This document shows, piece after piece, positions 46,766 to 54,844 of a stretch of DNA of 64,000 nt. The notes beneath the pieces were generated by a model. The model saw only the letters and a program-made list of their open reading frames with translations, did not search any database and was not told the DNA's origin. The number at the start of each line of letters is the position of its first letter. The first letter of the stretch is position 1. This DNA comes from Emticicia sp. 21SJ11W-3. GTDB lineage: Bacteria; Bacteroidota; Bacteroidia; Cytophagales; Spirosomataceae. The DNA lies in assembly GCF_024138715.1 (NCBI RefSeq), contig NZ_CP092074.1, forward strand, positions 62,001 to 126,000. The letters run 5' to 3'. The translations under genes were made by a program, and so were the position numbers.

Positions 46766-46870
46766 CAGTCCCAAAAATGGGAGAAACACTGAGCGTTACA
46801 TAGCAGGAGCATAGTAAAAAGGTGGGAATCAGGGAATTGGGGGATGGGTAAAAAAAAGAGTAAAATTAAT

Positions 46871-46901
46871 TTGGAGTTGTAAAAATAAAGTCAGACCTTT
46901 G
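46871..46901 (+). promoter_or_regulatory. rRNA promoter P2
   Basis: TTG (46871-46873), a 20-bp spacer and GACCTTTG (46894-46901), one mismatch, followed by CACCCCGGTT. Confidence 0.7.
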
Positions 46902-46985
46902 CACCCCGGTTAATCGAAAGAGAAAGGAGAAAAGGAGAGGAAAACGGGAGGTGAGAGCGAGGCGAAAAAAAACTTCAAAAATAAT

Positions 46986-47016
46986 TTGGGAATGTAAAAA
47001 TAAATTCAGAATTTTG
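46986..47016 (+). promoter_or_regulatory. rRNA promoter P3
   Basis: TTG (46986-46988), a 20-bp spacer and GAATTTTG (47009-47016), one mismatch, followed by CACCCCGATT. The unit closely resembles P2, as if duplicated. Confidence 0.7.
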
Positions 47017-47116
47017 CACCCCGATTGATTGGAAAAGGAAAGAGAGAAAAGGAAGAGGCGATAAGGAGAGTGAAAAAAAATATGAAAAAATATTTTTTTA
47101 ATTCAAAAAAGAGTAG

Positions 47117-52412: not shown

Positions 52413-52523
52413 CATGGTGTCAATAGGGCGGGTGAACACCTCTTCCCATCCCGAACAGAGCAGTTAAGCCCCGCACCGCTGATGGTACTGAGTTCATACT
52501 TGGGAGAGTAAGTAGACGCCAGT
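52413..52523 (+). rRNA. rrf: 5S ribosomal RNA, copy 1 (normal length)
   Basis: About 111 nt. Helix I pairs TGGTGTC with GACGCCA; the conserved CCCATCCCGAACAGAG loop and GATGGTACTG are present, and the 3' half ends GGGAGAGTAAGTAGACGCC. Length and structure are normal for Bacteroidota. It is 113 nt after 23S and is followed by a terminator. Confidence 0.95.
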
Positions 52524-52533
52524 TTTTTATTCC

Positions 52534-52567
52534 AAAGACCGTTACGAAAAGTAGCGGTCTTTTTTTT
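52534..52567 (+). terminator. Terminator after 5S copy 1
   Basis: AAAGACCGTTAC, loop GAAAA, GTAGCGGTCTTT form a 12-bp stem with one wobble, followed by a T-run. Confidence 0.9.
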
Positions 52568-52600: not shown

Positions 52601-52739
52601 CATGGCGTCCATAGGGTGGGTGAACACCTCGACTGCGCGTCCCGTTCCCATCCCGAACAGAGCAGTTAAGTCCGGGGACGCCCAGTCCGCACCGCTGATG
52701 GTACTGAGTTCATACTTGGGAGAGTAAGTAGACGCCAGT
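52601..52739 (+). rRNA. 5S rRNA, copy 2, with a 2 x 14-nt helix insertion
   Basis: 139 nt, otherwise close to copy 1. Two inserts of 14 nt each flank the helix III/loop C part: GACTGCGCGTCCCG after AACACCTC and a second one ending GGGGACGCCCAGT before CCGCACC. They are complementary over 13 positions with a single C-C mismatch, so the RNA would gain a helix between helix II and helix III. Helix I (TGGCGTC/GACGCCA) is intact and even better paired than in copy 1. Whether it is transcribed past the terminator of copy 1 and enters ribosomes is unknown. Confidence 0.8.
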
Positions 52740-52750
52740 TTTTTATTCCA

Positions 52751-52784
52751 AAGAGGCTGTCCAAAAAGGGGCAGCTTCTTTTTT
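52751..52784 (+). terminator. Terminator-like hairpin formed by the IS left end
   Basis: AAGAGGCTGTCC (52751-52762), loop AAAAA, and GGGCAGCTTCTT (52769-52780) form a 12-bp stem with two wobbles, followed by TTTT. It replaces the native spacer terminator behind 5S copy 2. Confidence 0.7.
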
Positions 52785-54550
52785 GGGTTCAGATAGGAAT
52801 GATTCGGGTTTTACTAAGCGGCGTAGCGATATTTTATCTCGTAAGATTCAAAAAGTACATAAATAGTCCTATTTTGAGCGGTAGATACTGAATTTTGTTG
52901 GTTTTCTTGTTCAGACAGGCGTTTTGCTGCCCACTTTCTCAGATTATGCCCGATAGCCATCAGGCCAAACTCAATACCTACCTTCTGAAGACCCCTTAAA
53001 GTAAATCTTGAGAACTTGTTATTACTTTTCATCTGTCCGAAGACAGCTTCTACCTCTATGGGTCTTTTACTTCGGTGCTTAAGTCCTTCTTCTGAGAGTA
53101 ACCAAGACCTTGCCTTTGCTTTCAGTTCATTAAGTCTGGGATTGACCTCTATTCTTCGGTTGACTTTACTTTTATGGCACATCCCTCTTAAGGGGCATCC
53201 ATCGCATCGCTTGGCCTGATAATACCTGACACCGGACTCATAGCCATTGCTGCTTGTCCTTTTACCTTGGCCGACACATGCCATTCTTTGACCCATGGGG
53301 CATACATAAAAGTCTAAGGCTTTGTTGTAATACAGATTCTGAACCAAAAATGGATTGTTCTTCTGTGATCGTTTCTGCTCTTTATGAAAGTAATTGTACT
53401 TCACATACGCTTTTATGGCTTTCTCTTCAAGCCACTCATAGTTCTGTTCACTACCATAACCTGCATCGGCCACTACCTCTGTACTTTGCTTGCCGTATTG
53501 CTCCTGAAAACCCTCCAGGTGGTGGGTAAGTGTGGTGGTATCTCCTGCTGTCTGATGGATGCTATAATGGGTAATAAACTGGTTCTCGGTACTAATCTGA
53601 CTATTATAGGCTGGTTTGAGTTGACCATTCTGCATATGGTCATCTTTGAGTCGCATGAATGTGGCCTCTTCATCGGTCTTGCTATAACTATTCCGCTCGC
53701 CAAGCGTCTCCAACTGCTGTTCATACTTCTCTAAGCGGGGCAAGTGTTCATCTTGCAGTTGCTTTATTTGCTTTTGCGCCTGTTTAGTACTACCCTTTTG
53801 TTTACTATTCAACTCTGCAAGCTTGTTCTTAAGTTCGGTGCTGTCTATGGGTTTGGGGGTCTCTATTCTATTTAGCTCGCCCTGGTCTTGCTTAATCTGT
53901 GATTCTATCTCTGATAAGACAGACTGGATTTTACCTTCCAGTTTAGCTTTGTTCTTCTCTACTGACCCTTTCCATACAAAACTGTAGCGGCCAGAGGCGG
54001 ACTCTATTTTCGTACCATCCACATACTGCAAATCCAAACTCACATATTGCAATTCATGAAGCATCCGTACTACTGCTGCAAACAGGCTTTGAATATGGCC
54101 TTTTAAGCGTTTACCCCGAAAGTAGTTAATGGTCCGGTAATCAGGAGTGCTGTTACCCGACAACCACATCAAGTGAATGTTCTCCTGTAAGGCTTTCTCT
54201 ATTTTACGGCAGGAATAAATATTCGAAAGGTAGCTGTAGAATAATACTTTCAGGAGCATCCGGGGATGGTAGCTGCTGGTTCCCCCTCCTTTGTATTGGG
54301 AAACAAGCATGCTTATATCCAGTCCGTCAACGACTTCGTTCACGAGGCGAACCGGGTGATTCTGTGGTATTCTCGAAAATATATCTTCCGGAAAAAGACT
54401 TAATTTATTGGCCGGTAACGATTTAAAATGTATCTTCATCTTCTCTTTGTGTTGCACCTCTAAGATAACACTTTTTAGAGGAACAAAGAAAAATCCCCGC
54501 GTCTTTTTTGACCGGGGATTCCTATTTTTTAGACCTTTTTAGACAGCCTC
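52753..54550 (-). mobile_element. IS1182-family insertion sequence
   Basis: About 1.8 kb. Terminal inverted repeats: left GAGGCTGTCCAAAAAGG, right (reverse complement) GAGGCTGTCTAAAAAGG, one mismatch in 17. The single transposase gene inside is intact. The element sits in the spacer between 5S copies 2 and 3: the left flank ATTCCAAAG and the right flank TTTTTTTTGCATTTTGCCC are the two halves of the spacer that is unbroken after copy 1, with its hairpin replaced. No clear target duplication apart from an AAG/CTT ambiguity. Confidence 0.88.
52814..54457 (-). CDS. IS1182-family DDE transposase
   Basis: 547 aa, full length. The N-terminal DUF772-like DNA-binding part has LVNEVVDGLDISMLVSQYKGGGTSSYHPRMLLKVLFYSYL. 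The catalytic residues are visible as Asp in LQYVDGTKIESASG, Asp in EVVADAGYGSEQNYEWL and Glu in RPIEVEAVFGQMKSNNKF. A charged coiled-coil insert lies at about residues 170-260, and a Cys-rich CPMGQRM...CDGCPLRGMC segment at about 390-430, both usual for this family. ATG at 54439 is an alternative start. No frameshift, so the element may be active. Confidence 0.95.
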   Translation of the reverse strand: MQHKEKMKIHFKSLPANKLSLFPEDIFSRIPQNHPVRLVNEVVDGLDISMLVSQYKGGGTSSYHPRMLLKVLFYSYLSNIYSCRKIEKALQENIHLMWLSGNSTPDYRTINYFRGKRLKGHIQSLFAAVVRMLHELQYVSLDLQYVDGTKIESASGRYSFVWKGSVEKNKAKLEGKIQSVLSEIESQIKQDQGELNRIETPKPIDSTELKNKLAELNSKQKGSTKQAQKQIKQLQDEHLPRLEKYEQQLETLGERNSYSKTDEEATFMRLKDDHMQNGQLKPAYNSQISTENQFITHYSIHQTAGDTTTLTHHLEGFQEQYGKQSTEVVADAGYGSEQNYEWLEEKAIKAYVKYNYFHKEQKRSQKNNPFLVQNLYYNKALDFYVCPMGQRMACVGQGKRTSSNGYESGVRYYQAKRCDGCPLRGMCHKSKVNRRIEVNPRLNELKAKARSWLLSEEGLKHRSKRPIEVEAVFGQMKSNNKFSRFTLRGLQKVGIEFGLMAIGHNLRKWAAKRLSEQENQQNSVSTAQNRTIYVLFESYEIKYRYAA

Positions 54551-54592: not shown

Positions 54593-54722
54593 CATGGCGT
54601 CCATAGGGTGGGTGAACACCTCGACTGCGCGTCCCGTTCCCATCCCGAACAAAGCAGTTAAGTCCGGGGACGCCCAGTCCGCACCGCTGATGGTACTGAG
54701 TTCATACTTGGGAGAGTAAGTA
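54593..54722 (+). pseudogene. 5S rRNA, copy 3, 3'-truncated
   Basis: Same as copy 2 including both inserts, with one substitution (GAACAAAGCAG for GAACAGAGCAG). After AGAGTAAGTAG the sequence turns into unrelated GGGCTCAAGCG, so the 3' strand of helix I (GACGCCA) is missing. Helix I cannot form and the copy is probably non-functional. Its 40-bp upstream flank is identical to the one before copy 2. Confidence 0.8.
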
Positions 54723-54844
54723 GGGCTCAAGCGAAAAAGTTGGGGGTTAAGCATAAATCTTGGCGAGTCTAAAGAGGAAGAAAGGGCTCAAGCGAAAAAG
54801 TTGGGGACTACGCATAAATCTTGGCGAGTCTAAAGAGGAAGAAA
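54723..54844. repeat. Two tandem 61-bp direct repeats
   Basis: Units 54723-54783 and 54784-54844 both run from GGGCTCAAGCGAAAAAGTTG to AAAGAGGAAGAAA and differ at a few central bases (GGTTAAGC against GACTACGC). They begin exactly where 5S copy 3 breaks off. No function seen. The following 140 bp up to the next gene hold nothing I recognise. Confidence 0.8.

Follow-up and report, generated by a model that had tools for sequence, protein, structure and literature searches.

Opposite strikes by a dispersed 14-bp repeat probably explain an extra helix in a duplicate 5S rRNA copy of Emticicia

How does a 5S rRNA copy come to carry two complementary 14-nt inserts that its immediate neighbour in the same operon lacks? 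The question is raised by a 64,000-nt stretch of the genome of Emticicia sp. 21SJ11W-3 (contig positions 62001-126000), referred to here as the window; the genome is a single contig of 5.18 Mb (labelled G000). The window contains one rRNA operon (16S, tRNA-Ile, tRNA-Ala, 23S and 5S), and the features at its distal end, in window coordinates, are these:

52413-52523, plus strand: normal 5S rRNA, copy 1 (111 nt; RF00001, 80.6 bits)
52534-52562, plus strand: terminator-like hairpin with T-run, between copies 1 and 2
52601-52739, plus strand: expanded 5S-like copy 2 (139 nt; RF00001, 32.1 bits against a gathering cut-off of 38)
52631-52644, plus strand: insert 1, GACTGCGCGTCCCG (14 nt), within the 5' strand of helix III
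52674-52687, minus strand: insert 2, GGGGACGCCCAGTC in plus-strand letters (14 nt), within the 3' strand of helix II; an inverted relative of insert 1
52754-54550, minus strand: IS1182-family insertion sequence between copies 2 and 3 (ends approximate, placed by eye)
54593-54723, plus strand: 5S-like copy 3, with both inserts at 54623-54636 and 54666-54679

A sequence-only reading of this locus had described copy 2 as copy 1 plus two 14-nt inserts, and global alignment agrees, with exactly two gaps of 14 nt each; once the inserts are removed, the cores differ by 4 substitutions over 111 positions. The pairing it proposed, over 13 positions with one C-C mismatch, is also borne out and comprises 12 Watson-Crick pairs with a duplex energy of -22.8 kcal/mol. 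The helix was misplaced, however, as it does not form a new element between helices II and III: insert 1 interrupts the 5' strand of helix III, between CACCTC and TTCCC, and insert 2 the 3' strand of helix II, between AAGTCC and CGCACC. Insert 1 and the inverted insert 2 differ at two positions and are therefore relatives, not identical copies.

We took the 34 pairs of the minimum-energy fold of copy 1, which shows the five helices of the Rfam layout, as the canonical pairs. The helix formed between the inserts crosses eight of these (in helix III the six pairs underneath insert 1, in helix II the innermost two) and could therefore coexist with them only as a pseudoknot; it is thus not the independent module on an unperturbed core that characterizes expanded 5S rRNAs. 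In its free fold, copy 2 is predicted to use the insert helix (-47.8 kcal/mol, against -23.4 kcal/mol with the canonical pairs enforced), retaining 15 of the 34 canonical pairs (helix I, helix IV and the two top pairs of helix III) and losing helix II, the rest of helix III and helix V. The RF00001 model, which the earlier reading had named as a check, does not align 60 nt around helix III, and the resulting 32.1 bits miss the cut-off for a functional 5S.

Copy 2 sits downstream of the normal 5S at the operon end, behind the terminator-like hairpin. The spacer between copies 1 and 2 holds no sigma-70-type site and no TANNTTTG motif, by a promoter test that is weak, as the strict Bacteroidota pattern was silent upstream of 16S too and only a loose pattern matched there. 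Given this position, the lack of a promoter motif, the low score and the predicted misfold, copy 2 most likely yields no ribosomal 5S. Its RNA would miss the canonical 5S fold and would probably not serve in ribosomes, leaving copy 1 as the source of 5S. A separate feature of the operon lies upstream of 16S (window 46850-47048), where tandem 84-nt repeats are 77% alike and TANNTTTG motifs occur in the region; these repeats are perhaps tandem rRNA promoters.

The same arrangement recurs elsewhere in the genome. A second 23S-5S locus (contig C1, ~4.0197 Mb, minus strand; recognized from its 23S and 5S) has the same copy 1 as the window and a long copy 2 whose match to that of the window is perfect over 192 nt (100% identity, E 3.5e-96). 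Each locus also has a third copy. That of the window has lost the last 8 nt of 5S, corresponding to the 3' end of helix I, and scores 18.8 bits with RF00001 (E 0.67), while that of the second locus (~4.0194-4.0195 Mb) is long, damaged and broken after GTTAAG. Both termini of copy 2, by comparison, are intact. A recent duplication, or gene conversion with copy 1, is in our view the best account of these intact ends and of the identity at the two loci, and the sequence that the two loci share would likewise have arisen by duplication or gene conversion.

Several features of copy 2 count against regarding it as a pseudogene. Its helix I is perfect and its 3' half intact, and insert 1 adjoins what we take to be loop C positions 34-37 (E. 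coli numbering), which Stepanov and Fox describe as having room for inserts (PMC7812874). The identity of copy 2 at both loci points the same way, as it could come from purifying selection; gene conversion explains it as well.

The insertion sequence between copies 2 and 3 encodes an IS1182-family transposase (52814-54457, minus strand; NF033551, E 2.2e-132). It occupies the place where the second locus has a terminator stem-loop behind copy 2, and the end of the element is itself a terminator-like hairpin (52750-52781). At copy 3 (window 54722-54843), at the second locus (L012) and in two further sequences (L034 and L049), the breakpoints of 5S-like copies fall on or close to GTTAAG or the 3' end, and the DNA past them is alike (GGGGGATCAAACC..AAAAGTTG and GGCTCAAGCGAAAAAGTTGGGG, iterated); it perhaps represents the ends of one mobile element that has repeatedly struck 5S copies. 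The Rfam scan also returned a SAM_alpha match, which at 22.8 bits against a cut-off of 36 we regarded as chance.

With copy 2 as the query, matches were found in 9 of 11 genomes of the genus (E 0.1). Eight relatives contributed 13 normal 5S loci; a 5S-like copy follows in two (G008 contig C30 and G002 contig C31), 10 have none within ~1.5 kb downstream, and in one (G003) the sequence ends too soon to judge. The occurrence in relatives to which the earlier reading had looked was found for one half of the pair: insert 2 lies at the same 5S site in both G008 and G002, while the site of insert 1 is free in both. The G008 copy has inserts at five sites besides that of insert 2. The G002 copy has a 42-nt block of three units, the last of which is insert 2, together with further inserts of 14, 14, 28 and 1 nt. 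Across four 5S-like copies (G000 copy 2, G008 C30, the truncated G008 C14 and G002 C31), 15 of 18 gap lengths are multiples of 14, the exceptions being 30, 13 and 1 nt; several of these gaps are shared by descent, so the 18 are not independent events. The inserts vary in sequence among the copies (for example, CAGTGCGACTGCCG, TCATTCCATGATGG and GACTGGCCGTCCGC) and are mostly constant in length.

Given that insert 2 has no partner at the insert 1 site in two relatives and that the other inserts there are of other kinds, the pair probably did not arise as a helix. The two window inserts have G at unit position 5, where the corresponding G008 units have A, a difference that considered alone would look like covariation. 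We rejected selection for pairing, as this sole hint is equally explained by unit variants and insert 2 stands in the two relatives with nothing at the insert 1 site to pair with.

Another genus of the family (G021; L022 and L034) has two tandem 5S-like copies with a hairpin insert, GGTTGGTCGCAACC (~15 nt net), which adjoins the insert 2 site; the 5' strand of helix II is altered, and the copies score 36.0 and 35.4 bits with RF00001. An apparent 5S fragment bearing the unit, noticed by eye in G440 (L154), was set aside as it had no Rfam match at E 0.1. Short fragments of the 5S 5' end also lie between 23S and the normal 5S, at L016 172-193 (G003) and, by eye, at L014 ~1437-1480 (G008).

A likely origin of the inserts is seen outside the rRNA operons. 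The 14-mer CGGGGACGCCYAGTC, with at most one mismatch, has 81 matches across the genus (11 genomes, 10 of them positive) against 1 for a reversed control, a count that takes in the 5S copies and units in tandem. Across the family (222 genomes), exact matches to GGGGACGCCYAGTC number 338 against 16 in the control; they come from 73 genomes, reach 34 copies in one genome and are frequently in tandem with a period of 14, as in G117, where nine exact units in a row are followed by a tenth with one mismatch. The GGGGACGCCYAGTC unit extends to 37 of 390 genomes in a sample of the order, ten of them outside the family and from four other families. In a phylum sample it occurs in 2 of 296 genomes, both in the family; 12 of the 296 are members of the order, and none of the 284 sampled from outside the order has it. 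A second unit, GACTRGCCGTCCGC, gave 41 matches against 6 in the control (at most one mismatch, 11 genus genomes), with a tandem of five 14-nt units, of the form GACTAGCCGTC(C/G)GC, outside rRNA in G000 (C1:3204243-3204312, L210). As a further dispersed unit we rejected CAGTGCGACTGCCG, which at 9 matches against 4 in the 11 genomes barely exceeds its control; one of its matches, within a tRNA-like copy, is nevertheless a clean insertion of 14 nt.

On the evidence of these sequences, the inserts are complementary as inverted relatives of one dispersed 14-nt unit: two related units lying in opposite directions must pair. A mini-hairpin as a property of the unit was set aside. The stems of single inserts are not unusual (P 0.05-0.56), with a joint value of 0.0036 for seven inserts. 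A layout of an 11-nt mini-hairpin followed by 3 nt is found in 6 of 6 unit types, and in 2-4% of shuffles for each, though this layout was spotted post hoc and three of the six types are relatives.

The unit was seen by eye in tRNA arrays, terminator-like hairpins, intergenic repeats and apparent transposase reading frames. Filled and empty sites differ by one unit, as expected of a mobile repeat, at both 5S sites and at four pairs outside 5S (in G010, where a third unit is involved, G018, G008 and G005), the difference being exactly 14 nt each time. In the G018 pair, the unit is present in one arm of a hairpin and missing from the other. Over 69 distinct non-tandem sites in the loci examined, some of them related, the base directly before the unit is C in 53 (P 3e-19 against an assumed 0.25) and the second base before it is A or T in 57 (P 7e-5 against an assumed 0.6). 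As the unit ends in AGTC, insertion behind its own end would yield tandem arrays. Units also stand at mirror positions in both arms of several hairpins (G018, G136, G134 and G135), and the filling of both arms could be a second route to complementary inserts.

Individual sites add further detail. Intergenic hairpins in G018 (L135-L137) and G136 (L141 and L142) carry symmetrical units, as if by copying from arm to arm. At G000:C1:4010977 (L044), a unit bearing an in-frame TAG lies inside an apparent transposase gene (by eye). The tRNA-like arrays L051 (G008) and L220 (G010) have short GC-rich inserts, one of which is a clean 14-nt unit of different sequence.

Two broader patterns were sought and rejected. 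A preference for palindromes was weak: once joined, the flanks give somewhat better folds than controls matched for GC (P 0.011; controls existed for 67 of 69 sites), and pairs spanning the junction of the joined flanks are no commoner than in controls (P 0.20). Self-BLAST of 400 kb each from G002 and G018 gave 14-nt places in 1 of 16 and 6 of 25, respectively (gaps of at least 4 nt), and a second pass, with merged gaps of at least 6 nt, gave 1 of 4 and 4 of 8; a genome-wide peak at 14 nt was set aside, as of the five second-pass places one does not resemble the unit and two belong to a single hairpin as its arms, which leaves too few to claim it firmly.

These observations lead us to a reading that we hold to be the most likely by far: copy 2 is a redundant 5S duplicate, placed distally in the rRNA operon and struck by two 14-bp dispersed repeats in opposite orientations, with the extra helix as a by-product. 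Redundancy would have allowed copy 2 to tolerate two separate insertions, one per orientation, and the opposite orientation would have made them complementary, so that the helix would not be a selected structure. We infer, rather than observe, that copy 2 lacks function and that the two insertions were independent events. Of the two possibilities that the sequence-only reading had left standing, it is that of drifting, non-functional units which gains from the predicted misfold, the sub-threshold score and the decayed copies.

The other possibility, a tolerated expansion segment, fared badly. It would require a functional 139-nt 5S rRNA that joins some ribosomes and makes them heterogeneous, and we consider this quite improbable. 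The intact helix I and 3' half and the identity at both loci would suit it, as would the expanded and normal 5S genes that occur together in some published genomes (PMC7812874), but the insert helix excludes helix III and the inner part of helix II unless a pseudoknot forms, helices are lost in the predicted fold, the score lies under the Rfam cut-off, copy 2 stands behind a terminator-like hairpin with no promoter found in the spacer, the insert pair was not found in the two relatives with 5S-like copies, and other copies are decayed. We give a similarly slim chance to a non-ribosomal role, in which the 5S-like unit and its strong hairpin would act as a read-through terminator, a processing signal or a small RNA. 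The great predicted stability of copy 2 as a whole (-47.8 kcal/mol) and the recurrence of insert-bearing tandem 5S-like copies in two genus relatives and another genus of the family are in its favour; it is opposed by the variation of the inserts in number, place and sequence between relatives, and by a 5S-like copy following only 2 of the 13 normal 5S loci in eight relatives (10 without one within ~1.5 kb, 1 ending early). Although rRNA repeats are prone to mis-assembly, an assembly or sequencing artefact is next to negligible in probability, as the genome is a single contig in which two loci carry the long copy, and two further genomes from the genus have insert 2 at that same place in 5S.

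Reading copy 2 as a redundant duplicate hit by repeats also accords with published cases. Stepanov and Fox report expanded 5S rRNAs as well as insertion-bearing 5S pseudogenes at operon ends after a putative terminator, the latter from Peptococcaceae and Pseudoalteromonadaceae, and motifs resembling the thermoanaerobacterial insert in intergenic regions of other genomes (PMC7812874). Those pseudogenes resemble the present copies in lying downstream of a normal 5S with a terminator before them, in occurring at times more than once, and in having a 5S-like core interrupted by inserts; some of them have lost terminal parts (PMC7812874), and here copy 3 of the window lacks its 3' end and copy 2 keeps both ends. 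The present case differs in coming from Bacteroidota and in having inserts that trace to a dispersed 14-nt unit, with lengths mostly multiples of 14. The expanded 5S rRNAs described there share with copy 2 a paired extra sequence of at least 13 nt in the 5S core, beside normal 5S genes, but their segments pair internally and spare the core fold, whereas here the inserts pair with each other across helix III (PMC7812874). Among the top matches in the open-access PMC literature, a collection outside which subscription papers and bioRxiv mostly fall, no paper dealt with this 14-nt repeat or with insertions in the 5S of Bacteroidota. The mobile GC clusters of yeast mitochondria are small GC-rich insertions scattered through the genome; in this they resemble the present unit, and unlike it they are mitochondrial.

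What moves the unit is a separate matter. That a Y1 transposase (RAYT/TnpA-REP) mobilizes the units as REP-like sequences strikes us as rather unlikely. They are short, GC-rich, dispersed and often in inverted pairs, nothing but the unit distinguishes filled from empty sites, and 47 of 48 genomes of genus g32 have Y1 transposase genes. When Y1_Tnp genes were counted within that genus, however, the correlation with unit number (Spearman 0.31, P 0.03, 48 genomes) vanished once genome size was allowed for (partial r 0.11, P 0.46, n=48), so that in this one genus the test tells against a Y1/RAYT mover. REP sequences are described as 20-40 bp long with a stem of at least 7 bp (PMC3733652, PMC6006769) and as tagged GTAG or CGTC at one end (PMC3733652). 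The unit has 14 nt, against 20-40 bp with stems of 7-20 bp, its best stems in seven inserts are 3-4 bp, it has no GTAG tag, and its CGTC lies within the unit and not at an end. The unit resembles REPs, BIMEs and REPINs as a small GC-rich dispersed repeat with hairpin potential and frequent inverted pairs, and differs from them in its length, its short stems, its lack of a terminal tag and its occurrence in tandem arrays of 14-nt period, and inside 5S copies and tRNA arrays too. To judge from sequence features, the 14-nt unit is not a REP by definition but may work in a similar way. As to the mode of movement, we infer that it is most likely by site-preferring insertion without target duplication, possibly by way of a single-stranded hairpin.

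More broadly, and as a tentative proposal that we hold to be possible but would not call probable, Cytophagales may host mobile units of 14 bp, which would comprise a mini-hairpin of 11 nt with 3 nt added and fall into several sequence families. Such units would enter 5S and tRNA arrays, hairpins and genes at exact junctions, mostly behind A/T-C and with no duplication of the target; re-insertion behind their own end would give the 14-nt tandem arrays, and redundant 5S copies would record the process in multiples of 14. To our knowledge, such a unit, if truly mobile, would be smaller than any other mobile DNA.

What the 5S copies show is probably an ordinary by-product in a pseudogene, and cases of this kind are already published from two other bacterial families. 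It carries a caution, in that an rRNA copy with paired inserts does not necessarily hold an expansion segment, as two inverted strikes by a repeat can mimic perfect helices. The novelty is the lead to a 14-bp unit, dispersed and precisely inserted across one order of Bacteroidota, which is unusual and testable. If the unit is truly mobile, it lies far below the 20-40 bp of REPs, and the question becomes which enzyme moves a 14-mer; its patchy distribution across the order, together with clean empty sites, makes this question directly testable.
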